DNA of 40,003 nt, from NCBI GenBank assembly GCA_037139415.1, contig JBAXGN010000056.1, positions 1 through 40,003 of the forward strand. Reading direction: 5' to 3'. The position numbers were made by a program, and so were the translations under genes. The stretch is from Verrucomicrobiota bacterium. GTDB lineage: Bacteria > Verrucomicrobiota > Verrucomicrobiia > Limisphaerales > Fontisphaeraceae. Of this stretch, positions 1,665-37,432 are shown piece by piece. The notes below the pieces were generated by a model. It was not told where the DNA came from, made no database searches, and saw only the letters and a list, made by a program, of their open reading frames with translations. The stretch's first letter is position 1; each line of letters begins with the position of its first letter.

Positions 1665-2317
1665 ACACCATCCGAATATTGATTGCCGACGATCACGACG
1701 TCGTGCGCGAGGGGCTGAGGACACTCCTCGCCGCGCGCGCGCATTTTGAAGTCTGTGGGGAAGCCGCCACCGGCCGCGCCGCCGTCGCCCTAACGCTTAA
1801 ACTAAAGCCCCACGTGGTGGTGATGGACTTCAGCATGCCGGAGTTGAACGGCCTGGAAGCCACGCGCCAGATCCGCAAGACGCTGCCCGACACCGAGGTG
1901 CTCATCCTGACCATGCACGACTCCGAGACGCTCGCGCGCGCGGTATTGGCGGCGGGTGCGCGCGGGTTCCTGCTGAAAACCCATGCGAAGGGACAGCTTG
2001 CTGCCGCCGTGGACACGCTGGCCCAGCACCAGCCATTCTTCACCGGCACCCTCTCCGTCCATGTCGTCAACGCATGCTTGAATCCCGGCCAGTCTCTCGC
2101 AAAAAACGGTGGCGCTGCCGACCGGCTCACGCCGCGCGAGCGGGAGATCGTTCAGCTCATTGCCGAGGGCCGGACGAACAAGGAGATCGCGCTCCAGCTT
2201 GGCCTCAGCGTGAAGACGGCGGACGCACACCGGGCGAACGTGATGCGCAAGCTCGACCTGCATTCGGTCAGCGAGCTGGTGCGCTACGCCGTGCGCAACC
2301 AGATCGTGCAAGCGTAG
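1661..2317 (+). CDS. NarL/LuxR-family response regulator
   Basis: This 218-aa regulator has an N-terminal receiver domain (acidic pocket around Asp10-Asp11, phosphoacceptor Asp56 in VVVMDFSMPE, conserved Lys in GFLLKTHAKG). Its C-terminal LuxR-type helix-turn-helix spans about residues 150-212 (LTPREREIVQLIAEG, TNKEIALQLGLSVKT). It overlaps the kinase gene by four bases (ATGA), so it is the cognate partner that His338 of the kinase should phosphorylate. A dimeric DNA-binding output is expected. The 16-bp palindrome just downstream (2346-2361) is a candidate binding site, but that link is inferred only from position. Confidence 0.93.
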   Translation: MNTIRILIADDHDVVREGLRTLLAARAHFEVCGEAATGRAAVALTLKLKPHVVVMDFSMPELNGLEATRQIRKTLPDTEVLILTMHDSETLARAVLAAGARGFLLKTHAKGQLAAAVDTLAQHQPFFTGTLSVHVVNACLNPGQSLAKNGGAADRLTPREREIVQLIAEGRTNKEIALQLGLSVKTADAHRANVMRKLDLHSVSELVRYAVRNQIVQA

Positions 2318-8205: not shown

Positions 8206-8688
8206 TTACAGTTTCAACTTATTCAACGCATTCCATGGGGATGACCCCTGGTCAAACCCACCCGTTCCACTGGCCTGCGTCTTGTCAGCCAGACTTTTAA
8301 GCCCGCCGCACTCAGCTTCACACAACGGATGTTGCGGAAAGCCGAGAATAATATCTTCTCGAATGAACGGAGTCAAGTCCACCTCGTCAGAGATTATTTT
8401 CACAGCTTCCTCGCCCGACAAAGGGATCAAGCAACTCCATGGGTCCAACTCCAATCGGAAGACCAATGGTTTGAGGCAACGGACACATTCGCAGTCCAAT
8501 AAAAGCACCAAAGAACCCTGCAAAAGCAGGCTTTCTTCGAGTTTTTGGACTTCCAAATCGTACTTTAACGATTGCGTAACCCGAATGCACTCATCCATCG
8601 CTTCGAGCCCTAATTCGGCGGGCGACACTTCCCCTTCCAACTGTAAATTTTGTTTTTCCAGATGCCTTAAATTGATGGTGACACTCAT
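8206..8688 (-). CDS. yceD: YceD/DUF177 family protein
   Basis: This 160-aa protein has the family block DCECVRCLKPL (Cys-x2-Cys) in its middle and the acidic C-terminal region with LTPFIREDIILGFPQHPLC. YceD is associated with 23S rRNA accumulation/50S assembly and almost always precedes rpmF, as here. The ribosome site GAGG lies inside the end of coaD, and its start is only 2 bp from the coaD stop, so the two are translationally coupled. Confidence 0.9.
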   Translation of the reverse strand: MSVTINLRHLEKQNLQLEGEVSPAELGLEAMDECIRVTQSLKYDLEVQKLEESLLLQGSLVLLLDCECVRCLKPLVFRLELDPWSCLIPLSGEEAVKIISDEVDLTPFIREDIILGFPQHPLCEAECGGLKSLADKTQASGTGGFDQGSSPWNALNKLKL

Positions 8689-24339: not shown

Positions 24340-26757
24340 TCATTGCTTCGTTTTTCCCCCGTCAATCCGTTTCAGTTCGACTTTTCCAGCAAGAGCATCG
24401 AAATGCGCCAAGTGGCCCGCTTCGGTGACTGGTCCCTGAAGCGTATTACCCTGACCTTGGGCCGACCAACTCCCCGCAGCGAGGCCGGTCACGGTCACTT
24501 TCATCGGGTGATTGCCGGGGAGATCGAGCGTGATCGCTCCCTCCAGCAGGCCGTCCCCCTTCGGGAAAAGCACCGCATGATCCGCAATCTGAAACCCGAT
24601 GCAATCAGCCGTTTCCAGGGACGTCACCGGCAAGGGGCGGGAAGCCGGTTGGTTGTCGTGGACCTGCATGACCACCAGGAACCGATCCTGTTTTTGCGGA
24701 AGCGTCGGGGACAACTCCAGCCGCCAGCCAGCGCCTTCGTCATCGCTGCCACTGGACTGGGAAATCGGATAGTTCTTCCCGTCAGCCAGATACTGGGCTC
24801 CGGGACCGCCCAGCATCTTAAGCGCATAGTTTCCCTTTGCCGGCAGCAGCACGGAAGCATCCATGCGTCCGCCCCACAGGCTGGGCACCGCAAAACCATC
24901 CGGTTCAACGCTGGGTTTTTCCAGCGCATGCAGCAACCAGCTTTTGGCAAACGACGGATTGGCGGAGCGGACGCGGTCGTAAACCGCGAGCACGGCCGGA
25001 TGATCCTTTTGGCCGAGGTTCAGGAACAGGAAGGACCGCGTGAAATTCTCGACCTTGGGCCCGTAGCTCTGAATCTTGCCGCAGAGATGGCTGTAGATCG
25101 GCCGGGCCGGGTCAGGGCCAATCTGATGAGCCAGGACCTCGCCAGCCTGATAGCCTTGCTTCAAGAGTTCGTCGAGCGTGACGGGTTCCCGTCCGTCTTG
25201 CGGCCAGCGCTGTCCCCCGTCATTCGCCACCGGTGTCTTTATCCAGATGAACTGCTCCTGCGGATCCTTCACCGTCACGGTGTTGTGGGCAACGCTCCGT
25301 TGATAATAATTCGCCCAATGCGCACTACCGTAGCCGGCATAGGCACCCGAATCTACCGCCAACATACCCTTGTACCAAATTTGAAAGTGGCCGGCATCCA
25401 AGTGCTGGTGGTTGCCAAACATCCACGGCGCAATCTTCATCATTGCCACTACAGTTGGGGACTCTTTGCCTTCCTGCCATCCCGTGCGCGCCAGCATTAC
25501 TCCCGAAGGATCCTTGAAGTACCGGCTCAGCGGTAGCGTCTCAAGCGGCTGGGTCGGGAGCTGTGGTTGTGCGAACAGAAAATAGGGAAGCGTATCGGTA
25601 AGGTCATCCTTCATGGTAATATGCTTCTGGAGCATCCCCGCGATGACCGGATCGTGGGATAGGAATACGCTCAGCAGCTCGCCGTTCACATCCGCTGTGG
25701 GGTGACTGCCCCACTTCTTCGGAATCGCGGAGCCATCGCCATCGGCCATCTGTATGTGATCCGGGCGCAGCGAATAATAGGTGCCATAAAGGAGCTGCTC
25801 CTGGCCCTCGGCAAAGACGCGCGCGCCGGCCATGCGTTGGAAGATACAGGCGCACCATAGCTCCCACTTGGCGCGGACATGTCCGTACGAACTGCCCTGA
25901 TGGTGCCAATGGGATGGATAGAAGTAGTTCCGCGCCGGAATATGTTCCTCAAAGAGCCGTTTGGCCGTGAGCTGGTAGATTTCGGGATCTTCATCGTACA
26001 CCGCGATGCCGGCCGCGGTCAGGTCGCGAAAAATGTTTGCTTCACCGCCATGCCCCACCACGGCACCGGCCCGCACCGGTGGGAACCCCACCTCCAGCAT
26101 CGCAGCAATGCGGCGGATATGCGCAATGATGGAGGCTTTTTGCGGGGAGCTTAACAGCGGATAACACCAATCATAGACAATCGCGGCGGTGGTGATCGTC
26201 GCGCCTTTACCCCGCGTAATATCCATGGCCTCCTTTTTGTTGGGGAAGGTAACTGTGGCGAGAACTGTTTCGAGCAACTGGATCGCCCGTTTGCCCATGG
26301 CTTCATTCTGTTCGACCACATAGCGCAGGGCGCAGAATTCAATCAGATCGTGGAGCCGGGGATCATAATTCTGGGTCTTGCTTGGGGCGAGGCCCCGGCT
26401 GCTGCGTCCCCATTCCATCCAATTCCGGGGGGCTGAGTCAAACCGCTCGGGCACCGGCAGTTCGCCGTTCCAGCCCGATTCGCTGAGCGCCCTCACCCGT
26501 TTAGCAAAACGCGTAAAGGCCGGTTCCCCGAGCCGCCGCCGCATCTCGGGCAGATCGGTGGACCGCAACAGCAACCGGGGATGTCCCGCCGGCGGCAGGA
26601 TCGGTGGAACGAACGCCTGCCCGGCCTCTAGCGGCCGTGGACTGCCTTGCGCTGATTTCTTCGGCCCGCCTTCAGCCGCCAGACAAACGTGGACCGCCAG
26701 CAACGCGACTAGCGTGCCAATCGCCGGAAAACTGAACTGACTTGTGTTAGGTGACAT
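24340..26757 (-). CDS. Heparinase II/III-like polysaccharide lyase
   Basis: This 805-aa exported protein (signal peptide GTLVALLAVHVCLAAEG) has an alpha/alpha-toroid N-terminal half (about 50-400; LLLRSTDLPEMRRRLGEPAF, YDWCYPLLSSPQKASII, GHGGEANIFRDLTAAGIAVYD). The central heparinase II/III block carries GNHQHLDAGHFQIWYKG and the following LAVDSGAYAG. A beta-sandwich C-terminus follows. The paired His residues and Tyr in NYYQRSVAHNTVTV are typical of the catalytic/zinc region of this superfamily. The substrate is probably an acidic polysaccharide (uronate-containing), but it cannot be fixed from sequence. It starts a glycan-degradation neighbourhood running to 37432. Confidence 0.85.
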   Translation of the reverse strand: MSPNTSQFSFPAIGTLVALLAVHVCLAAEGGPKKSAQGSPRPLEAGQAFVPPILPPAGHPRLLLRSTDLPEMRRRLGEPAFTRFAKRVRALSESGWNGELPVPERFDSAPRNWMEWGRSSRGLAPSKTQNYDPRLHDLIEFCALRYVVEQNEAMGKRAIQLLETVLATVTFPNKKEAMDITRGKGATITTAAIVYDWCYPLLSSPQKASIIAHIRRIAAMLEVGFPPVRAGAVVGHGGEANIFRDLTAAGIAVYDEDPEIYQLTAKRLFEEHIPARNYFYPSHWHHQGSSYGHVRAKWELWCACIFQRMAGARVFAEGQEQLLYGTYYSLRPDHIQMADGDGSAIPKKWGSHPTADVNGELLSVFLSHDPVIAGMLQKHITMKDDLTDTLPYFLFAQPQLPTQPLETLPLSRYFKDPSGVMLARTGWQEGKESPTVVAMMKIAPWMFGNHQHLDAGHFQIWYKGMLAVDSGAYAGYGSAHWANYYQRSVAHNTVTVKDPQEQFIWIKTPVANDGGQRWPQDGREPVTLDELLKQGYQAGEVLAHQIGPDPARPIYSHLCGKIQSYGPKVENFTRSFLFLNLGQKDHPAVLAVYDRVRSANPSFAKSWLLHALEKPSVEPDGFAVPSLWGGRMDASVLLPAKGNYALKMLGGPGAQYLADGKNYPISQSSGSDDEGAGWRLELSPTLPQKQDRFLVVMQVHDNQPASRPLPVTSLETADCIGFQIADHAVLFPKGDGLLEGAITLDLPGNHPMKVTVTGLAAGSWSAQGQGNTLQGPVTEAGHLAHFDALAGKVELKRIDGGKTKQ

Positions 26758-26901: not shown

Positions 26902-27075
26902 TGGAACGGAACGGACACCGCTTTTTGGCGCGCTTCATGCCTGCACAGGTCGTGCTGCGGCAGGGCATTGCTTTGGGCTCACCATTCATGAGGGCTAACT
27001 TTCCCTCACCCCGGTTGGGGAATCAAGGGGGATTTTATGCCGGGTCAGTTCGAGGGGTGAACTGTGGTGGACTGG
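26902..27075 (+). repeat. Composite dispersed repeat, copy A (full length)
   Basis: This is the most complete copy of a repeat with a left module (CATGCCTGCACAGG...GGCATTGCTTTGGGC) and a right module (GGTTGGGGAATCAAGGGGG...TGCCGGG). It aligns over its whole length with 35653-35820; partial copies are 30449-30510, 34650-34729 and 36430-36531. The reverse strand always begins ATG-x-x-x-GAGCCAAAAGCAATG, giving peptides like MNGEPKAM / MHREPKAM. The 26758-27155 gap (398 bp) otherwise holds no gene. Confidence 0.8.
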
Positions 27076-27155
27076 AAAATCGCGCGCGCTTCAACACCAC
27101 CGCCTTGGGGTGCTAGCCGCGTTTCGTGTTTCCAAATGGAACGGTGCAACTTGGA

Positions 27156-27950
27156 TTACCGGCGACGGCGGAAAACGAACACTGCCGCACCACCCAAACC
27201 GAGAAATGCAAAGGTCCCGGGTTCAGGGACGGATGTTCCGTCGGTGCCATAAATGCGCAGGGCAACACTTTGATTCTGTTGGCCCAGTGATCGAAGCGTG
27301 GAGGTAAAGTTACCGTTGGTTTCCGAGGCGGCGTTGCGGTAATAGCCGTTGAAAACCTGTGAGCCAACCGTTGGCAGCATGCCGTACGAGATAAGCGAGG
27401 TGAGGCTGTTGACGTTATTGTACGTTACGCCATCGGTGGTGCCTTGATAGTTAAAGGTGATCCCGATGGTCGTACTCGTGAGCTCGATTGGGGTGCCGAG
27501 GGTGTATCCGGGAGCGGAACCTACCGGTGTGCCTTCAAATGGATAGTAGAATCCCGAGTTATAAGTGCCGGCAGACGTGAAGCTGTAGCTGCCCAACAGC
27601 GTGCCGAACGCCGGCGTGGTGCTATTGACCGTACCAGTATTGACAGTTCCCCAGACAAACAGGTTGAGCTTTAGCCCCGTGTAGCTGGTGCCCGAGAGGT
27701 TGACGGGGTAGAGGTCAAAACCGGTGATCGTCGTCGTTCCCGCAGCCACGGTGTAGGCGTCGCCCATGAATGTGTTGGGCGTGGAGCCGGTGGAACTCAC
27801 ATGCGCGTTGGTGTTTCCCCCTTGAAGATTCGACATGTTGTCGAATACCACCCCGGCCCTGACACTCGTGGCTGAAAGTAATACCGCCAGTGCCGCCGCC
27901 GTTCGCAACCAGCTCCCGCCAACCGTCAATGTATTCAATAAATGTTTCAT
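27156..27950 (-). CDS. PEP-CTERM sorting-domain exported protein
   Basis: This 264-aa protein has a signal peptide (TAAALAVLLSATSVRAGVVF), a Ser/Thr/Gly-rich beta-type body (about 30-235) and a C-terminal PEP-CTERM tail: VPEPGTFAFLGLGGAAVFVF followed by RRRR. Such tails are removed by an exosortase, so the cell must encode one elsewhere. The body (GFDLYPVNLSGTSYTGLKLN, a jelly-roll-like pattern) recalls other PEP-CTERM proteins of unknown role in surface or biofilm matrix. It lies between two enzyme genes transcribed in the same direction. Confidence 0.88.
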   Translation of the reverse strand: MKHLLNTLTVGGSWLRTAAALAVLLSATSVRAGVVFDNMSNLQGGNTNAHVSSTGSTPNTFMGDAYTVAAGTTTITGFDLYPVNLSGTSYTGLKLNLFVWGTVNTGTVNSTTPAFGTLLGSYSFTSAGTYNSGFYYPFEGTPVGSAPGYTLGTPIELTSTTIGITFNYQGTTDGVTYNNVNSLTSLISYGMLPTVGSQVFNGYYRNAASETNGNFTSTLRSLGQQNQSVALRIYGTDGTSVPEPGTFAFLGLGGAAVFVFRRRR

Positions 27951-28192
27951 AGGGACATCTTCATCTTAAGTTAACCGCTCACCGAGCCATGCAAAGTAAT
28001 CGTTTCTTAACGGCGCGCAAATTTATTTGTTAAGGGAAATTTATGATGATGATAAGAATATGTATTTGGCGCGGTGTGGTGCTTATGGTTGCCAGCGGGC
28101 AAAATGTTCTCGGAATAGTTCCGTTCCGGCGCCGGCCCCAATTCCGGCTAGCAGCGACCGCTGGCAAATCCGCTTGGGGCAGCAGCTTCCCT

Positions 28193-30451
28193 TTATGGCG
28201 CTTTCACTGCTCCGTAGGCAAAGCCTGAGCCCGCGAAACCCATATAGACCTTGCCGAAGACTTCTTTGTCGCCATCCATGGCATCCACGTAGTCAAAGAT
28301 GCCGAGGGGATAGTTGCCGACTTTGTCCCAAGTGGCGCCCGCATCGGTGGAGCGATAAATCCCCGTTTGGTTGCCCGCAATGCCCGCCACAAAAACGGTC
28401 GGGTATCCGCCGTCCTTTTCCGGCTTGCCCAAGCCGACATTAAAGGCCTGTTTGATGCCGGGTGCCTGGGTCCAGGTGGCGCCGCCGGTGGTGGAATGCC
28501 ATACGCCGCCCACCGTTCCTTCGGCAAACCAGAGGTCCCGGGCATGTCCGGGGGTGGATTTCAAAATGGAGTTCCACCGCTGAGGAACCGGGTTGCCGGC
28601 CTTGACGAAATTGGCGCCCCCATTGGTCGAGCAATAAACCCCATCCTCCGGACGATAGCAGTAAAAGGTGTCGGGCAACACGCGGTCGGCGCACAGGGGC
28701 TTATGGGGGCTGGCATACGACCAGAATCCCGTGTTGGTCGGTCCGCCGAAGGAGGACTGCTGCCAGGTCGCCCCTTTGTCCGTTGTATAATAAGGCAGCT
28801 TCTTCATCGCCGGAGCCCATACGATGTTGTCGGTGCGGTTGGCGGATACCGCGATGACCCCGAACTCCAATTCTGCGGGAGCCGAGCCGTGGTTCACGGC
28901 CGGGAATCGGGTCCAGGTCTGTCCGCCATCGGTTGAATACCCGGTGGAATTCGGATGAGGTGAGATACCCAGGTGGTTCCGGAACACGCCGACGATGAAT
29001 TTCGGATCCGCCGGACACCAGTCGAGCGCCCAGCACGACATGAAGTAGGGTTGGGAACGCTGGGCGGTATAGGAATCCACGCCGCTGAAATAAAACGCGC
29101 CCAGGTCCCACATCGCGGCCACGGGCTTGCCGCCGGGCGGGGCGATCACGTCGTTGCCGCACATTTCCTCGATGCCTTCGCTGGCGGCCTGCCATTCGAT
29201 ATTGGGCGTGGTCAGGTCCTTGGTCCACCAAACGCCAAAGCCTTCCGCGAACCAGAGCTTGCCGCGTTCGAACGGATCAAAGGCGAGCGCGCCCGCGCTG
29301 AGGAAATAATTCCCGGTCTGCTTGCCGAGCCACTGGACATTGCGGCTGTTGAGATGAAACATGTGGACGGTCCAGGTGGCGCCTTGATCGGTGGAGTTCC
29401 AGCATCTGCCGCCGTTGCGCATGACGACGATATGCCTGGCGTCGGCCGGATCAACCGCCAGTTCCCAATACGCCTGGTCGCCGCCCTTCGCGTCGGTCGG
29501 CGTAATGTTGGTCCACACACCATCCGGCGAACATTTCCAGACGGAGCCGGCGAATTCCTTTTTCTTCGCCTTATCCTGGTCCTTGGTGAAGGCGACGTAA
29601 TACGTGCTGTCCGGCCCGATGGCCGCATCGTGGGGCATCCCGGTCAGGCCGGGACCGGAATTCGCGATCTGCGTCCAGGTGGCGCCGGCGTCCGAAGTCT
29701 TGAACACGCCCCCCTCGTTGACGGTGACGTAAATCACCTTCGTCCTCACGCCGTTCGTTTTTGACGCAAGCACGCCCGCGGCTTTGTCGAAGTGGACCGT
29801 GTTGACGCCATGCGGGGCCGTTCCCGCTGGCAAGCCCGCCACCTTCGTCCAGGCGGCCCCGCCATTCTGGGTGGTCCACAGGCCGTCCGCGATGGAGCCA
29901 AAGTAAACCACGTCGCTGTTGTTGGGATCAACGCACAGGCGCTCGCCCTCCTGCCGCCCCTTGCCGTTGGGCTCCATCTTGACTTGGTTCGTCTTGAAAT
30001 TCGTTGCGATCCAAGTATCGCCGCGATTGGTGCTCCTGAAGATCTGCCCGATGGCCTCTCCATAAGGCTGGCCCGCGAACGCCATGTAGGCCACCTCCGG
30101 GTCCTTGGGGGCGCTGACGATGCTGTCAACCCCCGCATACTTGGCATACCCCACCGAATCCGCAGGCATGCTGGCGGACGTGACCAGTTGCTTCCAGGTG
30201 GAGGTGGTGGGATTCCAGCGATAAGCGCCCGAGACATCGGCGCGGACATAGATGAGCCCCTTTTCGGTAGGGCTGATGTTCATGCCCACCACCCATCCGC
30301 CGCCGCCAATCTTCATCGGCTTCCAGGCGTAATGCCCGCTCAAATCTGCGGCCTTCGCATTAAGACCAGCCGCCAGGCAAATTCCGGCAACGAACAGCGC
30401 CATCCAAAGTGATCTGTCCTTATTACTGGGGAAACTACGTTTACTAGTCAT
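28193..30451 (-). CDS. GH74-like secreted beta-propeller glycosidase
   Basis: This 752-aa exported protein has a signal peptide (SLWMALFVAGICLAAGLNAKA). Tandem BNR/sortilin-type propeller repeats follow (STNRGDTWIATN, TTQNGGAAWTKV, TSDAGATWTQI, STDAGATWDKVGN). The N-terminal block WKPMKIGGGGWVVGMNISPT and VRADVSGAYRW match the first catalytic-Asp region of GH74 xyloglucanases; DPNNSDVVYFGS is another family block. Xyloglucan or related beta-glucan hydrolysis is the likely role; a non-catalytic propeller cannot be excluded. The start codon lies exactly at the edge of repeat copy B, which supplies its 5' leader. Confidence 0.8.
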   Translation of the reverse strand: MTSKRSFPSNKDRSLWMALFVAGICLAAGLNAKAADLSGHYAWKPMKIGGGGWVVGMNISPTEKGLIYVRADVSGAYRWNPTTSTWKQLVTSASMPADSVGYAKYAGVDSIVSAPKDPEVAYMAFAGQPYGEAIGQIFRSTNRGDTWIATNFKTNQVKMEPNGKGRQEGERLCVDPNNSDVVYFGSIADGLWTTQNGGAAWTKVAGLPAGTAPHGVNTVHFDKAAGVLASKTNGVRTKVIYVTVNEGGVFKTSDAGATWTQIANSGPGLTGMPHDAAIGPDSTYYVAFTKDQDKAKKKEFAGSVWKCSPDGVWTNITPTDAKGGDQAYWELAVDPADARHIVVMRNGGRCWNSTDQGATWTVHMFHLNSRNVQWLGKQTGNYFLSAGALAFDPFERGKLWFAEGFGVWWTKDLTTPNIEWQAASEGIEEMCGNDVIAPPGGKPVAAMWDLGAFYFSGVDSYTAQRSQPYFMSCWALDWCPADPKFIVGVFRNHLGISPHPNSTGYSTDGGQTWTRFPAVNHGSAPAELEFGVIAVSANRTDNIVWAPAMKKLPYYTTDKGATWQQSSFGGPTNTGFWSYASPHKPLCADRVLPDTFYCYRPEDGVYCSTNGGANFVKAGNPVPQRWNSILKSTPGHARDLWFAEGTVGGVWHSTTGGATWTQAPGIKQAFNVGLGKPEKDGGYPTVFVAGIAGNQTGIYRSTDAGATWDKVGNYPLGIFDYVDAMDGDKEVFGKVYMGFAGSGFAYGAVKAP

Positions 30452-30510
30452 GGGGGCGAACTTTCCCTTACCCCGGTTGGGGAATCAAGGGGGATTTTCT
30501 GCCGGGCCAC
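30449..30510 (+). repeat. Composite dispersed repeat, copy B (right module only)
   Basis: Positions 30449-30508 match 26987-27046 with five mismatches in 60. Similarity begins exactly at the reverse-strand ATG of the GH74-like gene; in the other copies this ATG opens the MNGEPKAM-type peptide. The left module is absent, replaced by the gene. The reverse strand offers an AAGGGAAAG sequence upstream of the ATG that could serve as ribosome site. Confidence 0.75.
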
Positions 30511-30515
30511 GTGGC

Positions 30516-30641
30516 GCAGGTTTCCAAACCTGCTGTATCGCCGACTTCCCAGTCGGCAGACCGTGGGGAATCGCTAACGCTGGGGATAGCATGAAGGTTT
30601 GCGGATTGGAAATCCGCGATACAGCAGACTTGGAAGTCTGC
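30516..30641. repeat. Nested array of four hairpins
   Basis: Four palindromes lie within 126 bp: GCAGGTTT-CC-AAACCTGC (30516-30533), GCCGACT-TCCC-AGTCGGC (30540-30557), GCGGATT-GGA-AATCCGC (30601-30617) and GCAGACTT-GG-AAGTCTGC (30624-30641). The spacers TGTATC and GATACA mirror each other, so the two hairpin pairs are also inverted copies of one another. The element therefore has hairpin symmetry at two scales. It directly follows repeat copy B. Confidence 0.85.
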
Positions 30642-30698
30642 GCTACGGGGGGTGCCTGTCCACCGGAGTTTCTTTCGTCCCATCCGAGATGCGTTCGC

Positions 30699-30791
30699 CA
30701 ACTCCAACGGAGTTGTGGCCTCCAGCCCAGCAGCGAGGCACGAGCACCCTGGGTCAGGCGGTTCATTAAATCCCCAACCCTGAAGGGGTTG
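30699..30791. repeat. Pair of short hairpin repeats
   Basis: CAACTCC-AAC-GGAGTTG (30699-30715) and CAACCC-TGAAG-GGGTTG (30775-30791) are two hairpins of similar design, separated by about 60 bp. They belong to the gene-free stretch after the four-hairpin array. The second one supplies the last codons and the stop of the ORF 30766-31014. Confidence 0.7.
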
Positions 30792-31014
30792 CGGCCATGC
30801 CCGGCGGCGGGATCGCAGACCCAATGCCCCCCAAAGTGATCGCCAGAGGGGCAAAAGTGACCGTTTTGGCCTTTTCCACGATCATTTTTGTGGTTTCCAT
30901 GGCCAGTTCCGGATTTTTCATGGTCAGTTCGGCGGCTTCATAGGGCTCTTGCATGGGTTGCCCGTGATCGAATGTGGCCGTTTTTATGCCGAATTGATCG
31001 GGAATTGAAATCAT
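30766..31014 (-). CDS. Hypothetical 82-aa protein ending in a repeat
   Basis: The 82-aa ORF starts MISIPDQFGIKTATFDHGQP and continues through the helical ELTMKNPELAMETTKMIVEK. A hydrophobic stretch TFAPLAITLGGIGSAI follows. The last residues (PPPGMAATPSGLGI) are encoded by the hairpin at 30775-30791, so the original C-terminus may have been replaced by the repeat. A G-rich sequence that could act as ribosome site precedes the ATG. I recognise no family. It could be a real small protein, a gene remnant or chance. Confidence 0.35.
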   Translation of the reverse strand: MISIPDQFGIKTATFDHGQPMQEPYEAAELTMKNPELAMETTKMIVEKAKTVTFAPLAITLGGIGSAIPPPGMAATPSGLGI

Positions 31015-31061
31015 CGCACCCCCCTGCCGCCGGATTGGTTAAGCTGCGGTTAGGGGGTGCG
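31015..31061. repeat. Inverted repeat with 9-bp arms
   Basis: CGCACCCCC (31015-31023) and GGGGGTGCG (31053-31061) are perfect 9-bp arms around a 29-nt loop containing GGTTAAGCTGCGGTTA. It directly precedes the reverse-strand ORF 30766-31014. An attC-like role was considered and rejected. Confidence 0.6.
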
Positions 31062-31225
31062 TTGTTTTTGGGCCGCGATGCCGGGGAAGGTGCCTGCGCT
31101 GAATCTGGTTGGGGAGTTAAGGGGGAACGTCCAGAGCTCAGCGACCCGGCCCACGAGGGCGTGCGATTGCAACCACGACGCCCCAACCGGGTTCGCTGCA
31201 GCACATGGTTGGGCGACTTTAGTTG
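31062..31225. repeat. Verrucomicrobial intergenic repeat with conserved spurious ORF
   Basis: The reverse strand reads SPNHVLQRTRLGRRGCN...PSWAGSLSSGRSP. From memory, very similar peptides appear as short hypothetical proteins in many Verrucomicrobia, which marks a dispersed non-coding repeat rather than a gene. It contains another match to the GGTTGGGGA...AAGGGGGA core of the composite repeat (31108-31126). The gap 31062-31326 holds no other gene. Confidence 0.5.
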
Positions 31226-31326
31226 AGCGTGTTGAGTGGTCATGGCCGAGCGAGTGCGGATGTCAATGAGCATCGAATGTGAGTTGATGCTTTGATTTTG
31301 CGCATGGCAGTGAACTCCACAGCGGG

Positions 31327-32322
31327 TCAGGGTTTAGGTGCAGCTCCTTGTTCGGCTTTTTGGCTAGTTGGGTCGGCCGCAGTTTTGTGCGGAACCTCCC
31401 AAATTTGGCTAGCACACCAGTTGGGAGCGCCTTCAGGCGTGCCGATCACGAAGTAGGGCAGTCTTCCTTCGGCGTGCCAGACGGTTCGAAAGGGTCTTAC
31501 ACTTTCGCCCGTTGGCAAACCGTCTTTAGCGAGGGTGCCTCCTCCCGGTGCTGTCCAAGCGCCAACCGTGACTATAAAATTGTCCCACCATGCCTCTTTC
31601 ACCTTGATCGCTTTCACAGTCGTCTTGGTCTTGGAATCGCGACAGCCGTTGTCGATTTCCTCTTCAGGATAAACGGTCGCGTCCCAATACCACCGCCATC
31701 GGAATCGTGAATTCTCATCTTCACCAATAGTGCCCCATACCTGAATGCGATAGCTCTTTCCATTCTGGTTGAATCGCAAATATGGCTGTCCACGACTGCC
31801 ACACCGCGCATAGGTGCCATTAGCGATCAAATCCTGCGTCGGACTTCCCTCAGGGGTGAAGAGAATCTTGCTCGATTGGACAGCGTGTTCGCTCCTCGCC
31901 TTTGTGATTTCGTTGTAGTTGATGTACTTATCCAACCAAAGCCAGGGTTCAGCACCCGGATTCTCGCAGTAACGAAACTGCTCAATGTCATATTGACCGG
32001 GTGCTTGCCCTGGTTTGTCCGTAAACCACAGGCGAAACGTCGTGTCGTCGACCTTGGTATTGGTAATCGTCATCACGCGTTGTGTTCGGTCTGCAGCTCT
32101 GACGAGGCGCCACCCGCGCTGAGAGGCGTTGATCGGCCAGTATGAATCAAGCTGCCTTGTTGGATTGACCTTGGGTATCGCCGGGCGAGGTGGTTCTTCT
32201 GCCTCCCTCAATCCATCGACAGACCACCCACAGACCGTGGTGCCGAGAACGCAGCACCAGAGACTCATCCGACGGAAGATGCTTGTGGCGAGAGAAACAG
32301 GGGAAGGAATGTTTTTGTTCAT
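31327..32322 (-). CDS. Hypothetical exported protein
   Basis: This 331-aa protein starts MNKNIPSPVSLATSIFRRMS followed by a hydrophobic LWCCVLGTTVCGWSV segment, a probable signal peptide. A TTG five codons earlier (32337) could also serve as start. The body is rich in Trp/Tyr/Arg (GEDENSRFRWRWYWDATVYP, EPWLWLDKYINYN, EGRLPYFVIGTPEGAPNW) with alternating beta-type pattern. I do not recognise a family. It ends in an Ala/Lys/Gln-rich tail. It is divergently transcribed from the GH50-like gene, with 223 bp between the starts for promoters. Confidence 0.75.
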   Translation of the reverse strand: MNKNIPSPVSLATSIFRRMSLWCCVLGTTVCGWSVDGLREAEEPPRPAIPKVNPTRQLDSYWPINASQRGWRLVRAADRTQRVMTITNTKVDDTTFRLWFTDKPGQAPGQYDIEQFRYCENPGAEPWLWLDKYINYNEITKARSEHAVQSSKILFTPEGSPTQDLIANGTYARCGSRGQPYLRFNQNGKSYRIQVWGTIGEDENSRFRWRWYWDATVYPEEEIDNGCRDSKTKTTVKAIKVKEAWWDNFIVTVGAWTAPGGGTLAKDGLPTGESVRPFRTVWHAEGRLPYFVIGTPEGAPNWCASQIWEVPHKTAADPTSQKAEQGAAPKP

Positions 32323-32545
32323 GGAAAGGGCGAGCAATCCCTTAACAATAATATTGAACGCCCTTTTCGTTCGTGGTTACGAGTGGCGGTTTATTCATGG
32401 TGGTTGGGATGCTGAATAGGGAAATTGGGATTGTCAATGGCGTATTGACTTTGATGTGGAAGGTCTTGCAGGGCGACCGATTTTTTGGGTGCTCCGAATA
32501 GTGGAAGCATGGCAAGTGCGGTCGTTCTTGAATCGCGGGGCGCGG

Positions 32546-34609
32546 ATGGTTAAAACTTCCGGCATGAGATTTGTCATTGCAGCGTTTTGCGTGGTGACGG
32601 CGGGCCTCGGAGCCAGTGGAGTTCCAGGCGCGGAGCCGGTTCCACCCATTGTTTTTGGCGGGCCGGAGGCGTTGGGCAAAGTCACGCCGCATTCGGCCAA
32701 GGCGCAATTTGCGGAGCGGGCGATGCGCGTGGAGTTCGGGAAAAGCGATTATCCCAACGTGACGTTCGCGGCGGGCAAGGCGTATGCGGCGGCTGATTGC
32801 GGCAACGTCGGCGCGATTGTGTTTGACGTGCGGAATCCCGGCACGACGCCGATTGACGTGCATGTGCGCGGCGACGCCACGGGCAATGGCGAGAAGTTCG
32901 TGCGGCAGGGGCACCTGGTGGTGGAGCCCGGCGAGCGGGTGGCGCTGGTATGGGGCGCGCAGCCCGCGCCCGAGGGGATGAAGGCCGGTCCGCCGGTGGA
33001 GACGCCGCCCGGCGCCCGCCAGATGAAGGTTTCCGGCAACTGGCCGGCGCAGGGGCCGTTGACGGCCTTTCAGATCTTCATGAACCAGCCCGAGCGGCCG
33101 GTGGTTTTGGAAGTCCATTCGATCCAGTTCCTTCCCAAGGCGGAGTTGACCGGCATTGTGGATCGCTACGGGCAGTACACGCGCGCCCAGTGGCCGGGGA
33201 AGGTGGGCAAAGACGAGGACCTGGCGCGCGTCCGCGCCGAGGAGGAAGCCTGGTTGCAGGCGCATCCGGCGCCGGGCGATCGCGATGAATACGGCGGCTG
33301 GCAGACCGGCCCGCAGCTCAAGGCCACCGGGTTCTTCCGCGTCGAGCGCGTGGAGGGACGCTGGTGGTTGGTGACGCCCAAGGGCCGGCTGTTCTGGAGC
33401 GTGGGGCCGACGTGCGTGCGGCCGGATTCCAGCGGGCCGGTTCGCGGGCGGGAAACGATGTTCACCTGGCTCCCCGAGGGCGCAGCCAAGCGGAACTCGG
33501 CGGATTTCTATCAAGTCAACCTCGCCAGGAAATACGGCGAATCATGGAATGACCTTTGGGTCAAGCAGACGGCCGCGCGCCTGCCGGCCTGGGGATTCAA
33601 CACCATCGCCAACTGGAGCCATGAATCCGCGTACGCGCCTCATCGCGTGCCGTTCACCGCCACGGTGAGCCTCGGCGGGTTGCCGGCGATCGGCGTCCGG
33701 CCCGCGCCGGGCAAGCCCGATAATCGGCTGCACGATTACTTTGATGAGTCGTTCCCGCGCAAGGCGGACGACGCCATCGCCAAACAGGCGGACAAATGGC
33801 GCGACGATCCCTGGTGCATCGGATTCTTTGTGGACAACGAAATTCACTGGGACGCCTGGACGGCCGGCGGCAACGAGGGGGTCGCGGCCCGCGCGGTGTT
33901 AGCTTCGCCGCCGACGGTGGCGGCCCGGCAGGCGCTGGTGAAGTTGCTGCGCGCCAAATACGGCACCGTGGGCGCGATGGCCAAGGCCTGGGGCATCACG
34001 TTGACCGACTGGGATCAACCGGTCACCCTGACCGCCAAACAGCTTAACGACGCGGCCCGGGCGGATTGCTCGGCGTTTCTCGCGGCCATGGCGGAGCGGT
34101 ATTTCTCGGTCATCAGCGCGGCCATGAAGAAGCACGCGCCCGACCGCCTCTACCTGGGCTGCCGCTTTGCCCAGCGGCCCCAGGAAGTCGTCAATGTCTC
34201 CGTCAAATACTGCGACGTGGTCAGCTTCAACATCTACAACGACACGATTGACCCGAAGAACTGGGCCTATCTGAACGAGCTGGGCAAGCCGGTGATCATC
34301 GGGGAATTCCACTTCGGGGCCACGGACCGCGGCATGTTTCACACCGGCCTGCGGCCCACCGGCAGCCAGGCCGAGCGCGCCGCCGCGTACGCCGCTTACG
34401 TCCGGAGCGCCTGCGCGATGCCGGCGCTGGTGGGCTGCCACTGGTTCCAGTACGTGGACCAGCCGCTGACCGGGCGCTTCGACGGCGAGAACTACAACAT
34501 CGGGCTGGTGACGGTCACCGACGCCCCCTACCCGGAACTGCGCGCATCGGCGCGAGACGTGAATGCCGAAGTGTACCGCCTGCACAGCGCGGCAACAGCC
34601 GGAAAGTGA
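32546..34609 (+). CDS. GH50/beta-agarase-like glycoside hydrolase, exported
   Basis: This 687-aa protein (ATG 32546; in-frame alternatives GTG 32456 and ATG 32564) has a signal peptide (MRFVIAAFCVVTAGLGASGVPGA). The N-terminal beta-sandwich (about 30-200) is followed by GFFRVERVEGRWWLVTPKGR and LFWSVGPTCVRP, a block typical of agarase-like GH50 relatives. The TIM barrel shows WCIGFFVDNEIHWD (acid/base Glu codon 33839-33841) and VIIGEFHFGATDRGMFHTGL (nucleophile Glu codon 34304-34306). Beta-linked galactan (agar-type) hydrolysis is the family role; the actual substrate here is not proven. Confidence 0.82.
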   Translation: MVKTSGMRFVIAAFCVVTAGLGASGVPGAEPVPPIVFGGPEALGKVTPHSAKAQFAERAMRVEFGKSDYPNVTFAAGKAYAAADCGNVGAIVFDVRNPGTTPIDVHVRGDATGNGEKFVRQGHLVVEPGERVALVWGAQPAPEGMKAGPPVETPPGARQMKVSGNWPAQGPLTAFQIFMNQPERPVVLEVHSIQFLPKAELTGIVDRYGQYTRAQWPGKVGKDEDLARVRAEEEAWLQAHPAPGDRDEYGGWQTGPQLKATGFFRVERVEGRWWLVTPKGRLFWSVGPTCVRPDSSGPVRGRETMFTWLPEGAAKRNSADFYQVNLARKYGESWNDLWVKQTAARLPAWGFNTIANWSHESAYAPHRVPFTATVSLGGLPAIGVRPAPGKPDNRLHDYFDESFPRKADDAIAKQADKWRDDPWCIGFFVDNEIHWDAWTAGGNEGVAARAVLASPPTVAARQALVKLLRAKYGTVGAMAKAWGITLTDWDQPVTLTAKQLNDAARADCSAFLAAMAERYFSVISAAMKKHAPDRLYLGCRFAQRPQEVVNVSVKYCDVVSFNIYNDTIDPKNWAYLNELGKPVIIGEFHFGATDRGMFHTGLRPTGSQAERAAAYAAYVRSACAMPALVGCHWFQYVDQPLTGRFDGENYNIGLVTVTDAPYPELRASARDVNAEVYRLHSAATAGK

Positions 34610-34649
34610 TGGGGCAAACGGTGGATGCAGCCAGCCCGGCCCTTCCTTT

Positions 34650-34729
34650 GGGAACTGAAACTGATAGATGGTTTTTGGGCACGGTCCATGCCTTCACTGG
34701 TTGCGTTGCGGTAGAGAAGCATTGCTTTT
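34650..34729 (+). repeat. Composite dispersed repeat, copy E (left module)
   Basis: The stretch contains TTTTTGGGCACGGTCCATGC and CTTCACTGG...GCATTGCTTTT, aligning with the left module of copies A and C. The right module is missing. It lies in the 307-bp gap between two convergent genes (GH50-like and the lipoprotein at 34917); nothing else is recognised there. Confidence 0.7.
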
Positions 34730-34916
34730 CAATCCCAACACGAGGACATCACATCAGACTGCCAGGGCAGGGGCAAGCGCCCATGCATAGATGTTTTGGA
34801 ACTGGTTGGCATTGCGACAAGCTGACTCTGGCAAAGGCAGGACGTAAAACGAACCAGGCTACGGTTTGACGCCTGCACCTTCTGCACTGGACATATCGGT
34901 TTCGCAGAGGCATGTC

Positions 34917-35747
34917 CTATCGTTCTGGTCCAAAGAATTGCACGACCGCCGCGTTTTCCCCGCCCACCCGCATTCTTACGCTACGCCACAACAAGGGCTT
35001 GTATTTCGTAACCGGGAGACCTTCAGTCAGAATCTCTCGGACCGACTTGTTTCTCGCGTGGATCGTGATCCTTGTCTCGCAGTCCTCAAAACCACCCTGC
35101 CTGCCGTCGGGATATCCACCCTGAATACCCTTTACGAGCTTGGCTAGCGATCGCAGAAGGCCCACACTATCGATTGCTTTTCCGCCCTTGCCATCCGAGA
35201 CCACAAACCCCTCAAGGTATCCGGAATAGTCTAAGGAAACGACGGCGTTTAAGGGGTACGTGCTGTCCGAGTAGAGGTCATTTTGCACCACATGAAAGGT
35301 TCGCGGATGGTTGCCGCTTTGGAGAATAGTGAAATCTTTCAGTTCACGATGGAGTGTGGTTAGTACGGAATCGAGAGACTCCGAGTTCCCGAGGGTGAAG
35401 ATGTTGTCCCCAAGAGCTGGGGCCTTGCCATCGGCGAACGAGTACTCCAACGTGAAGTGACACCCAAACCTTTTGCCTGCGGCGGTCAAGAACCCCTCGC
35501 AGTTCCACGCCGAAGGTGGCTCAGGGGGATTCGTATCTGGGCGCCGGTTTCGGGGGAAGGCGCAACTGCTCAGTAACGCAGTGAGGAGAAGCGCCGTAAG
35601 GTTACGGCACCAAGGGAACCCGTGAGGGTGACTTTCGGCAGGCGTTCCAGATAGGGACGGACTGATAAGAAATTGCTTTGAAGTACTATTCACGCCTTCA
35701 TTGGGCGCGCCGCAGTAAAGGAGCATTGCTTTTGGCTCACGATGCAT
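34917..35747 (-). CDS. Hypothetical lipoprotein
   Basis: The ORF encodes 276 aa. A lipoprotein-type segment (CRNLTALLLTALLSSCAFPR) indicates export and lipid attachment at Cys62. The body has TLEYSFADGKAPALGDNIFT and SLDSVLTTLHRELKDFTILQ, an STN/secretin-N-like feel, and a C-terminal ITIHARNKSVREILTEGLPV. No family is certain. The first 18 residues (MHREPKAMLLYCGAPNEG) come from composite repeat copy C; a GTG at 35693 would start after the repeat, so the true start is uncertain. Confidence 0.7.
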   Translation of the reverse strand: MHREPKAMLLYCGAPNEGVNSTSKQFLISPSLSGTPAESHPHGFPWCRNLTALLLTALLSSCAFPRNRRPDTNPPEPPSAWNCEGFLTAAGKRFGCHFTLEYSFADGKAPALGDNIFTLGNSESLDSVLTTLHRELKDFTILQSGNHPRTFHVVQNDLYSDSTYPLNAVVSLDYSGYLEGFVVSDGKGGKAIDSVGLLRSLAKLVKGIQGGYPDGRQGGFEDCETRITIHARNKSVREILTEGLPVTKYKPLLWRSVRMRVGGENAAVVQFFGPER

Positions 35748-35820
35748 GTGGCTGACCCTACGCCCACAACAGTTGGGGAATCAAGCGGGATTTCTTGCTG
35801 GGACAGCGGTGGACTGGAAT
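35653..35820 (+). repeat. Composite dispersed repeat, copy C (full length)
   Basis: It aligns with 26902-27075 over both modules with the same order and spacing (CACGCCTTCATTGGG...GAGCATTGCTTTTGGCTCAC, then AGTTGGGGAATCAAGCGGGA, then GGTGGACTGGAA). It overlaps the start of the lipoprotein ORF at 34917-35747. Confidence 0.8.
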
Positions 35821-35860
35821 AAACCAGCAAACTGACCGCGATGCGGTTAAACGGGATTTC

Positions 35861-36172
35861 TTATCTAATTGGCGGTCGCAACCGACGCCTCAACTTTCCA
35901 GGGGCTTGCGAACAATGAAATACGTATTGGACGAATACGCTCTTATCATCGTACTCAAAGTAGATCGCGTACGGAAACCGATGAACTAATATTCGGCGAA
36001 AGGTATCAAAACGGATGGAATAATGAAGCGGATGCTCAGCGATCAGGGTGTAAGCTTGCTCCAGGCAATCCAGAAAATCCTCTCCTAACCCCGGGGCTTC
36101 TCCTTCGTACCACTCATAGGCGTCGGCGATGTCAATCACCGCCTCTGGCACCAAAATAATGGCTCTACGCAC
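35861..36172 (-). CDS. RelE/ParE-family toxin
   Basis: This 103-aa protein has the family pattern IDIADAYEWYEGEAPGLGED, IAEHPLHYSIRFDTFRRILV and FPYAIYFEYDDKSVFVQYVF. The GTG at 36172 overlaps the antitoxin stop by 8 bases, the normal antitoxin-first arrangement; the frame is open further upstream within the antitoxin gene, but that part is a shadow. RelE/ParE toxins act on ribosome-bound mRNA or DNA gyrase; the target here cannot be told from sequence. Confidence 0.87.
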   Translation of the reverse strand: MRRAIILVPEAVIDIADAYEWYEGEAPGLGEDFLDCLEQAYTLIAEHPLHYSIRFDTFRRILVHRFPYAIYFEYDDKSVFVQYVFHCSQAPGKLRRRLRPPIR

Positions 36173-36383
36173 TGAGGGATTGGATTTTCTTTTTCGCGTG
36201 CTGCCACAGTATCCCCGAAGTTGGATTTGCCATGAAACGGGCCTTGCGGGCACGCAACTCCGCGACCACAGCGGGAGAATCCGCCAAGCAGTTTGGATCT
36301 TCCGCGATTGAGTTCCATAAATCTTCAACCAACCGCAATCGTTCAGCGACCGGCAAAGATCGTAATTCGTCTATCGCAATCAT
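36165..36383 (-). CDS. Addiction-module antitoxin (TIGR02574/Unstab_antitox type)
   Basis: The 72-aa protein MIAIDELRSLPVAERLRLVE...LWNSIAEDP matches the putative addiction module component family, in which the N-terminal helix LPVAERLRLVEDLW is conserved. The usual C-terminal SWEEVKARI-like ending is replaced by ILWQHAKKKIQSLSA. It precedes and overlaps the RelE/ParE toxin gene. The pair sits inside the glycan-degradation region next to composite repeat copies C and F. Confidence 0.87.
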   Translation of the reverse strand: MIAIDELRSLPVAERLRLVEDLWNSIAEDPNCLADSPAVVAELRARKARFMANPTSGILWQHAKKKIQSLSA

Positions 36384-36429
36384 AGAACAACCCTAATTCA
36401 ATGGGCAGGAACGCGCAAGCGGGCGTTTT

Positions 36430-36531
36430 GAGAAACTGTTAGACTTTGCTTTTGGGCACGGTTCACGCGTGCGCACTCCAACGCCACGACCTTGAGGTAA
36501 TGTTCATGCCTTCACTGGCCGTGATGCAGTA
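36430..36531 (+). repeat. Composite dispersed repeat, copy F (interrupted left module)
   Basis: GAGAAACTGTTAGACTTTGC and TTTTGGGCACGGTTCA (36430-36465) match the start of the left module. After a 36-bp interruption, TTCATGCCTTCACTGGCC and GTGATGCAGTAA (36502-36531) continue it. The copy lies 47 bp upstream of the antitoxin gene (36383, minus strand) and before the 3' end of the GH16 gene. Confidence 0.6.
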
Positions 36532-36580
36532 ACCGCCAGTGCCAACCGATCGGCTCTGTCGCGTTTGGGAAAGATTTTCC

Positions 36581-37432
36581 TCAGTTCAACTTCTTCTGAT
36601 AGAGGCGGACGTAGTCCACGACCAGGGTATCTTCGGGGGGCAGGAAGTTCTCCCATTGGCTTGTGGGCCCGCACCAAGGGGCGGCTTCGACGCTGATCTT
36701 GATGAACGCCGGTTTGCGGCAGGTGCCCTGTGATTTGGCCAGCGGGGCGCCGTCCTTGCCCTTCGCGGCGCCCAGCCCCAGGGCGTCGGTTTCCATGATC
36801 GCGACGCCGTCAATATAATAGACATACTTGGTCTCGTCCCAGTAAAGGCCGTAGGTGTGGAATTGCCCGTCCAACAATTCGAGGTGCGGGCCGGTTTCTT
36901 TGCCCCCGGCGTTGTGGGTCTTGCCATAGCCGCCCCAGTGCAGGTTGTGGGACATCCGGCCCAGGTTCCATTGGTTGAACGTCTCGAAGATGTCCACCTC
37001 GGTGCCCAGACGGGTATCGGTGGTGCGGCCCGCGACGACGTCGCCCGCCAAAAGCCAGAAGCCCGTCCAGTAATCGCTGCGGACGTGTTTCGGGAGGCGG
37101 AGGCGCGTTTCGCGGTAGCATCCGAAGGGCAGAGTAATGACGAGCCCTTCGCTGCCCTCAGCGGTCAGCAGCAGCCGCAGGGTGTCCCCCCGGAACAGGA
37201 AGGCGTCCGCGCTTTTCGCCTTGGGAAAAAGCTTGGCCGGGCTCTCGTTCACCGACCACGCAACCTTGCCGCCGAAGCCGTCCGGCGCGACATCGAAGTG
37301 GTGCGAAATCTTATACGCGCCTTCCGGGGCGTTGGCGCTTTTGAGGATAAGCTGCCCGCCGGCCTTCGCCTCCAAGGTCATTTTCACGCCGCCCCGGTAA
37401 GTGAGGTAAGCGACTTGGTTGGACACCGCCAC
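36581..37432 (-). CDS. GH16-family endo-glycosidase, apparently 5'-truncated
   Basis: The 283-aa ORF has a beta-jelly-roll GH16 domain with the catalytic signature GTEVDIFETF (E-x-D-x-x-E, both catalytic Glu and the Asp present), the substrate-cleft TGFWLLAGDVV, DGQFHTYGLYWDETKYVYYI and the C-terminal ENFLPPEDTLVVDYVRLYQK. The start is a GTG at 37432. The frame upstream reads VNPSGPVEVAVSNQVAYLTY but meets a TGA about 35 bp further up, and no signal peptide exists, unlike other GH16 enzymes. The gene is probably cut by a repeat-mediated rearrangement at about 37465. The substrate (laminarin, agar, carrageenan or mixed-linkage glucan) is undetermined. Confidence 0.8.
   Translation of the reverse strand: MAVSNQVAYLTYRGGVKMTLEAKAGGQLILKSANAPEGAYKISHHFDVAPDGFGGKVAWSVNESPAKLFPKAKSADAFLFRGDTLRLLLTAEGSEGLVITLPFGCYRETRLRLPKHVRSDYWTGFWLLAGDVVAGRTTDTRLGTEVDIFETFNQWNLGRMSHNLHWGGYGKTHNAGGKETGPHLELLDGQFHTYGLYWDETKYVYYIDGVAIMETDALGLGAAKGKDGAPLAKSQGTCRKPAFIKISVEAAPWCGPTSQWENFLPPEDTLVVDYVRLYQKKLN

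Follow-up and report, generated by a model that had tools for sequence, protein, structure and literature searches.

According to the accessible text of one study (PMC3189936), transposition of IS91 and IS801 begins at the right end of the element and may stop early; 26% of the IS801 insertions described there were short right-end fragments of 229, 360 or 679 nt, upstream DNA was occasionally carried along, and insertion showed preferred tetranucleotides. Elements of the IS91 family make no direct repeats, as far as the available portion of a second source goes (PMC9330008), and the oriIS end of ISCR1 is described, in the accessible part of a third (PMC6218425), as containing two functional outward-facing promoters, whose effect on reporters is 13- to 15-fold.

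The stretch of DNA analyzed here (the window; 40,003 nt) is contig C56 of a draft Verrucomicrobiota genome of 7.9 Mb in 378 contigs. It holds six sites of a small repeat, all on the minus strand, which belongs to a family of approximately 130 dispersed copies in the same genome. By analogy, this family fits the right-end scheme of IS91 and IS801. We consider it likely, with a probability of roughly 0.8, that the repeat is the right (origin) end of an IS91-family rolling-circle transposon, occurring as left-truncated copies and carrying an outward promoter. This reading is based on a mostly constant right edge, on lengths graded from the left, on a transposase subgroup encoded upstream and on the lack of target duplications. 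No description of the repeat was found among the literature matches listed, in a search whose coverage left out most subscription papers.

Family size and copies in the window

A BLAST search with the copy at 26902 retrieved 18 places in the genome, and a 28-mer core allowing up to three mismatches retrieved 55, against none for the reversed pattern. A profile built from the sequences of 11 copies (R1) gave 133 matches at E ≤ 1 in a genome search in which 150 of 1700 candidates were scored. With an iterated nhmmer profile, 130 copies were identified at E ≤ 0.01 in 914,480 bases, comprising the window and 60 stretches that were fetched as copy-bearing; in an initial tally, 52 of them extend to both ends, 54 consist of the 3' part alone (termed S), 19 of the 5' part alone, and five extend to neither end. 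On 40 contigs without an R1 match (800,000 bases) the profile found three copies at E ≤ 0.01 and none in the reversed sequence; since these contigs were chosen as match-free, this result indicates that few copies were missed and gives no unbiased density. Copy density is uneven, reaching 9 per 10 kb on some small contigs. The genome-wide search proposed in the first-pass annotation, which had listed five copies in the window, revealed a family far above chance expectation and larger than those five.

All five copies were recovered at their positions and in a single orientation, on the minus strand; a sixth had been overlooked. The first full copy (26907..27029, minus strand), with promoter-like elements, ATG and leader, lies upstream of a heparinase II/III-like gene (24340-26757), the protein of which has a Pfam Hepar_II_III_C match. 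As read from the sequence, its -35-like hexamer is TTGATT (27021..27026, minus strand), and 18 nt from it the -10-like position, located by sequence and family profile, reads AAAGTT (consensus TAnnnT; 26997..27002, minus strand). The leader ATG (26987..26989, minus strand) opens an 80-codon frame that includes a signal-peptide-like stretch and ends at the heparinase start. A PEP-CTERM protein gene (27156-27950) adjoins this copy. The 5'-only copy at 30441..30491 (minus strand) comprises the promoter-like part and an ATG (30449-30451), which supplies the first codon of a sortilin/BNR (GH74-like) frame of 752 aa (28193-30451). Just upstream of it, positions 30507-30650 form an inverted repeat with 43-nt arms (81% complementary), and related sequences occur on two other stretches (L075, L145); these probably constitute a separate MITE-like family.

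The overlooked sixth copy (31001..31123, minus strand) was recognized by profile, belongs to a second, diverged subfamily and is 88% identical over 139 bp to a copy on another contig (C35:5359). A left-truncated copy (34660..34738, minus strand; model positions 48-129) has convergent genes on both sides. The second full copy occupies 35661..35788 (minus strand), and its ATG (35745-35747) opens a 276-aa frame (34917-35747) with a lipobox-like signal peptide (...LTALLSSCAF). The copy annotated at 36430-36531 is present, but as two fragments rather than a single unit: the left part of an S-only copy (36493..36534, minus strand; positions 70-111), upstream of an antitoxin/ParE pair, and a second fragment of the same S module (36435..36472, minus strand; positions 94-132 of an earlier profile). 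The ATG followed by an EPKAM-type peptide, which had been attributed to the repeat, is found in two of the five originally named copies (MNGEPKAM at 26902 and MHREPKAM at 35653) and not in the other three: at 30449 the ATG is kept and runs straight into the gene (MTSKRSF...) with no EPKAM part, and at 34650 and 36430 the ATG/EPKAM part is absent.

Further repeated sequences are found at this end of the locus. The antitoxin/ParE stretch (36148-36430) is 97.5% identical over 283 bp to a stretch of contig C106; close by, 186 bp match contig C185 at 94% identity, and the antitoxin/ParE module seems to be duplicated within the genome. The 3' end of a GH16-like gene (36589-36728) matches contig C121 (L096 from 4995) at 94% identity over 140 bp, and the matching stretch there abuts an S copy of the second subfamily.

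Anatomy of the repeat and its relation to genes

The profile of the family has the layout CnCgCTTGanTC - N - TAggnT - N7 - ATGaatngnGagCcAaAAgCaaTGctCcnTtACCGCaaCGCGaCaAGTGaanGcat...GtGccaaAAAgcaAaTTCcTATCAGT. In the full form, TTGann is followed after 18 bases by TAnnnT, then by an ATG located 6-9 nt past the -10 and by a conserved leader ending in TATCAGT. The TTG of the -35 is near-invariant in 44 aligned copies, and the combination of TTG, 18-base spacer and TAnnnT looks like a sigma70 promoter. An ATG occupies the expected site in 64 of 71 full or 5'-only copies; the frame from it spans at least 60 codons in 26 of these 64, with an early hydrophobic stretch in 22 of the 26. The S part, corresponding to the last 55-60 bp, has a sharp left edge, TTACC (TAACC in the second subfamily), which is nearly constant as TTAC, TAAC or TCAC, and its right edge, TATCAGT, is mostly constant across copies. 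The only bias in the flanks of S is a T at +1 (59%). Conservation within the genome concerns the DNA and not one reading frame, the same stretch being read as EPKAMLLYRNA, QKQCSLTASR or AKTNAPLPQRDK, and a conserved leader peptide was ruled out because the frame varies between these copies. Copies in relatives retain the ATG frame as far as the core (51 of 53), though not always beyond it.

A stretch that is conserved, probably transcribed and located upstream of genes might also represent a structured regulatory RNA of the riboswitch type in the 5' leader. However, Rfam gave no match in the window at the gathering threshold, RNAalifold predicted no pairs in 44 copies and -0.99 kcal/mol in 11 copies, and the folding z-scores of ten single copies ranged from -1.5 to 1.2; lacking an Rfam match, a consensus fold and unusual single-copy z-scores, this explanation was rejected as extremely improbable. 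A 3-bp hairpin, CGCnnnGCG, is present in 72 of 117 copies of the genome compared with 2% of shuffled sequences; 91.5% of cells are paired versus 90.1% in shuffles (41 of 500 shuffles as high), and no other conserved hairpin was found in these copies.

Gene contexts were assigned by a codon-usage script of our own rather than by a published gene finder, and with slightly different size limits the copies were divided into 59 full, 47 S-only, 12 5'-only and 12 other. Of the full copies with a called downstream gene, 54 of 56 face or start a same-strand gene and two an opposite one, at a distance of mostly less than 200 nt and at most 925. A gene was called downstream of 44 S-only copies and is on the same strand in 31 of these; 10 of 47 S-only copies lie between convergent genes. 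Within tandem gene pairs, S runs in the direction of the genes in 19 cases and against it in three. The over-representation upstream of same-strand genes, suspected from the window, is therefore borne out by full copies, which depart clearly from the equal mixture of orientations without start sites that would have argued against it; the association is looser for S-only copies (54 of 130). Full copies appear to persist at sites where they form the 5' end of a gene, and S-only copies seem to be largely leftovers. No tRNA genes were detected in the window; on contig C4, 3 nt separate the end of an S copy (L115:8385-8442, minus strand) from the 3' terminus of a tRNA-Pro gene (8305-8381, plus strand).

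The genes downstream are diverse. A Pfam scan covered 68 of the 77 proteins encoded downstream, 47 after full or 5'-only copies and 21 after S; no family occurred in more than two proteins of either set, and this heterogeneity rules out a regulon of one pathway. Acquired low-GC islands were likewise dismissed, as the difference in local GC is small (0.554 versus 0.571). A hydrophobic N-terminus is encoded by 32 of 49 genes behind full copies versus 257 of 533 background genes, a modest link of full copies to signal peptides. As judged from sequence, the transposon end would carry an outward sigma70-type promoter together with an ATG at or near the first base of the transcript; an adjacent gene would be transcribed from it and would often gain an N-terminal extension of about 20-30 residues before its own signal peptide. 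Unrelated genes beside the copies are thus probably switched on from the transposon end. We infer that transposition occurs and that both the promoter and the near-leaderless ATG function.

Linkage to an IS91-type transposase and edges of the repeat

The conserved stretch upstream of full copies in several genomes (C179:177 in the genome of the window) encodes the C-terminus of an IS91-type transposase. When 20 genomes were searched for Y2_Tnp, the only match of this genome at E ≤ 1e-5 was on contig C179, where a 454-aa frame with no internal stop (456-1817, minus strand) is followed 126 nt downstream by a full copy on the same strand. The product is assigned to the IS91 family by NCBIfam NF033538 (183.8 bits; cut-off 125) and has the Pfam domains Zn_Tnp_IS91 (67 bits) and Y2_Tnp (79.3 bits). 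For one transposase subgroup, all 35 rows of C-termini in fetched DNA are followed on the same strand by the element, at a distance of 70-256 nt (19 distinct places by our count, once overlapping stretches are merged); this proportion is biased because most transposase stretches were fetched as element-bearing. Among stretches fetched by their transposase (20 rows, 19 places), the element lies downstream in seven and not in 12; it is present in all six such places that match the C179 transposase through its C-terminus, and three of the 12 element-free transposases, once translated, proved to be IS91 relatives of clearly other sequence. On contigs C6 and C336 the gene is reduced to its final 53-66 codons (from residues 402 and 389, respectively), and a left-graded series with one right end extends from the whole gene on C179 through these remnants to full copies and S copies. 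No Y2_Tnp match was obtained in seven copy-bearing relatives (G165, G261, G273, G256, G259, G263 and G066), yet G256 and G259 have a C-terminal transposase remnant beside a copy.

Transposition would start at the repeat end and would often stop early or run into neighbouring DNA; such early stops and run-on, with the transposase acting in trans, would lead to many one-ended copies. The position of full copies at the starts of genes (54/56) that belong to diverse families (no Pfam family shared by more than two of 47 proteins) would also agree with a mobile promoter or leader that has no transposon of its own, was passed between gene starts by recombination and was retained through selection for expression. 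The steady linkage to one transposase and the S-only copies located between convergent genes (10/47) and beside truncated gene copies make this possibility very unlikely.

Full copies that are up to 95% identical precede unrelated genes. In one such comparison (L065.11884 and L065.8098) the likeness is restricted to 162 bp, and in most close pairs it stops within a few bases of the TATCAGT edge; in some pairs it continues to the left of the element for as many as 330 bases. The copy at 26907 and its counterpart on contig C71 (89% identity over 224 bp) form an exception at the right edge, sharing approximately 85 bases past it, the signal-peptide-coding stretch included. Homologous flanks stop at the element in several cases, truncated gene copies among them: L109.1100 and L063 are 99% identical over 403 bp up to the S edge, and L069.11482 and L108 form a second such case. 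Upstream of the full copy on contig C162 there is another dispersed repeat of about 95 bp, found on L083, L103, L130, L096 and L143.

Searches for target duplications and terminal inverted repeats, both suggested by the first-pass annotation, were negative: at least four flanking bases match in two of 37 S copies, which is not above the shuffled mean of 2.0, and no inverted repeats were seen at the edges of the window copies. The lack of both is as expected of IS91 and unlike a classic MITE. There is no fixed tetranucleotide beside the right edge, and the constant left edge of S (TTACC/TAACC) is unexplained by random early termination; both points count against the IS91 reading, as do the pairs that stay alike past the usual edges, the weak hairpin and the seven copy-bearing relatives lacking a Y2_Tnp match. 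No empty site spanning a copy was matched in the fetched DNA, and two genus-level searches yielded no exact empty site, only one gene with and without elements. A gene between two elements in G261 has a homologue in G165 that is 88% identical over 2378 bp and has no element beside it, and the likeness (6828-9204 of L311) falls entirely between the two elements. The repeat had been proposed to be either a mobile leader with expression signals or a non-autonomous mobile element; both options are partly supported and seem to be true at once, the former by full copies that contain a promoter-like pair, an ATG and a leader, and the latter by an origin as an IS91-type right end.

Relatives, arrays of S and known systems

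With R1, the family was identified in its own genome and in one of 38 relatives at E ≤ 0.01. A second profile (R2), comprising 39 copies from this genome and five from relatives, gave matches at E ≤ 0.001 in 52 of the 320 genomes searched within the order (a count that includes the genome of the window), spread over 41 of 118 genera; in a sample of the phylum, three of 387 genomes had matches at E ≤ 0.0001, namely the genome of the window itself, a second member of its order and a further genome from its class. The two other genomes of the same family gave no match in either the R1 or the R2 search. A 24-mer of the form found in relatives occurs in 61 stretches of named genomes, labelled as Verrucomicrobia (46), Akkermansia (5), only 'bacterium' (4) or other groups (6), and 28 of the 46 are labelled Limisphaerales, subdivision 3 or Pedosphaera. 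Viral contigs contained no exact match to this 24-mer, and named genomes none to a 25-mer taken from the core of the genome of the window. Of the 61 stretches, 53 have an ATG shortly before the core (34 at 18 nt, 16 at 21 nt), which is in one frame in 51 of the 53; downstream, the best coding strand agrees with that of the repeat in 45 stretches, opposes it in 13 and is too short to call in three. Two or more ATCAGT units are present at the right edge in five of the 61, a possible trace of slippage, and head-to-tail partial copies occur in relatives on L195/L257 and L196.

Arrays of S were studied in 15 stretches from one genus (g43) and from two genomes of another, mostly picked for several S matches; 14 of them hold 50 S matches at E ≤ 0.05. 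All 36 consecutive S pairs have the same orientation, as do a further 24 of 24 pairs at other loci of relatives, some of which overlap, and mixed orientation was seen on no contig among the genus-level matches from which the stretches were picked. The number of genes between consecutive S parts is zero in six pairs, one in 22, two in seven and three in one. A full copy heads some arrays (L307, L312) and not others (L303/L304, L306, L316). In the genome of the window, same-strand neighbours are more often full-then-S (12) than S-then-full (4), neighbours within 5 kb have the same orientation in 48 cases and the opposite in 13, and neighbouring S parts are somewhat more alike than others (0.74 versus 0.69; 6 of 2000 samples as high). 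A replication-strand bias behind the one-orientation arrays received no support, the positive-skew strand accounting for 26 of 47, although the skew is weak here.

The uniform orientation of S pairs (36/36, and 24/24 elsewhere), the presence of exactly one intervening gene in 22 of 36, and the order (12 to 4) and greater likeness of neighbouring S parts resemble a system of integron-like cassettes, in which S would be an attC-like site, the full form a promoter with an attachment site, and an integrase would capture genes. However, three consensus S sequences fold no better than shuffles on either strand (z from -0.64 to 0.06), no attC boxes were recognized in them by eye, 12 of 39 array genes are reversed (27 same-strand, 12 opposite), and neighbours in the own genome are mixed (48 same, 13 opposite). 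Integron integrases scored above the curated cut-off in five of 13 genomes (four in G277, and others in G273, G097, G147 and G013), but not in the own genome or in the array-bearing G165 and G261, and six integrase stretches contained no S at E < 0.5, among them the five fetched stretches with an integrase above the cut-off (L318-L322). A classic integron with attC sites was rejected on fold and integrase linkage, and the cassette explanation as a whole is regarded as unlikely.

Returning to the transposon end, a candidate explanation for the one-orientation arrays is one-ended capture that stops at an upstream S. It is possible, though doubtful, that the ends act as an integrase-free cassette platform, each event carrying a gene plus S and entering beside, or stopping at, an existing S. 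If so, one-orientation arrays behind a promoter-bearing end would represent a second route to integron-like arrays, and captured genes would receive a promoter, a start codon and an N-terminus. If the transposon-end reading is right, an order of soil and water bacteria possesses, in the ends of one rolling-circle transposon lineage, a reservoir of promoters and gene starts amounting to about 130 copies in one genome, and what is known of ISCR1 and resistance genes would be extended to ordinary gene evolution in a little-cultured group. Odd annotated N-termini in these genomes would be explained, and the arrays would offer a setting where gene capture of the IS91 type can be tested by strain comparison.

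Compared with known systems, the repeat shares with IS91, IS801 and IS1294 an IS91-family transposase, a constant right end, a variable left end and the lack of target duplication, and short right-end derivatives, which in IS801 are mobile according to the accessible text of PMC3189936. It differs from these elements in having approximately 130 ends per genome, no right-edge tetranucleotide and a recurrent minimal form of 55-60 bp, and its transposase is 29-30% identical to the best eight plasmid rows. As in the POUT promoters of ISCR1, where outward sigma70-type promoters in the oriIS end express downstream genes (available part of PMC6218425), the promoter would point outward; unlike in ISCR elements, an ATG lies 6-9 nt past the -10, the reading frame in many cases continues from the element into the gene, and no integron or resistance context was seen among the scanned neighbours. 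The arrays resemble integrons and CALINs in their short sites of one orientation, mostly with one gene between them and some led by a promoter, whereas S does not fold, no linkage to an integrase was seen and large genes lie in both directions. Enterobacterial RU repeats and the promoter repeats of halovirus HF2, as far as the portions of their descriptions at hand go, are likewise small and dispersed and contain open frames or promoters; the present repeat is distinguished from them by having no palindrome or terminal inverted repeat and by its tie to a rolling-circle transposase.
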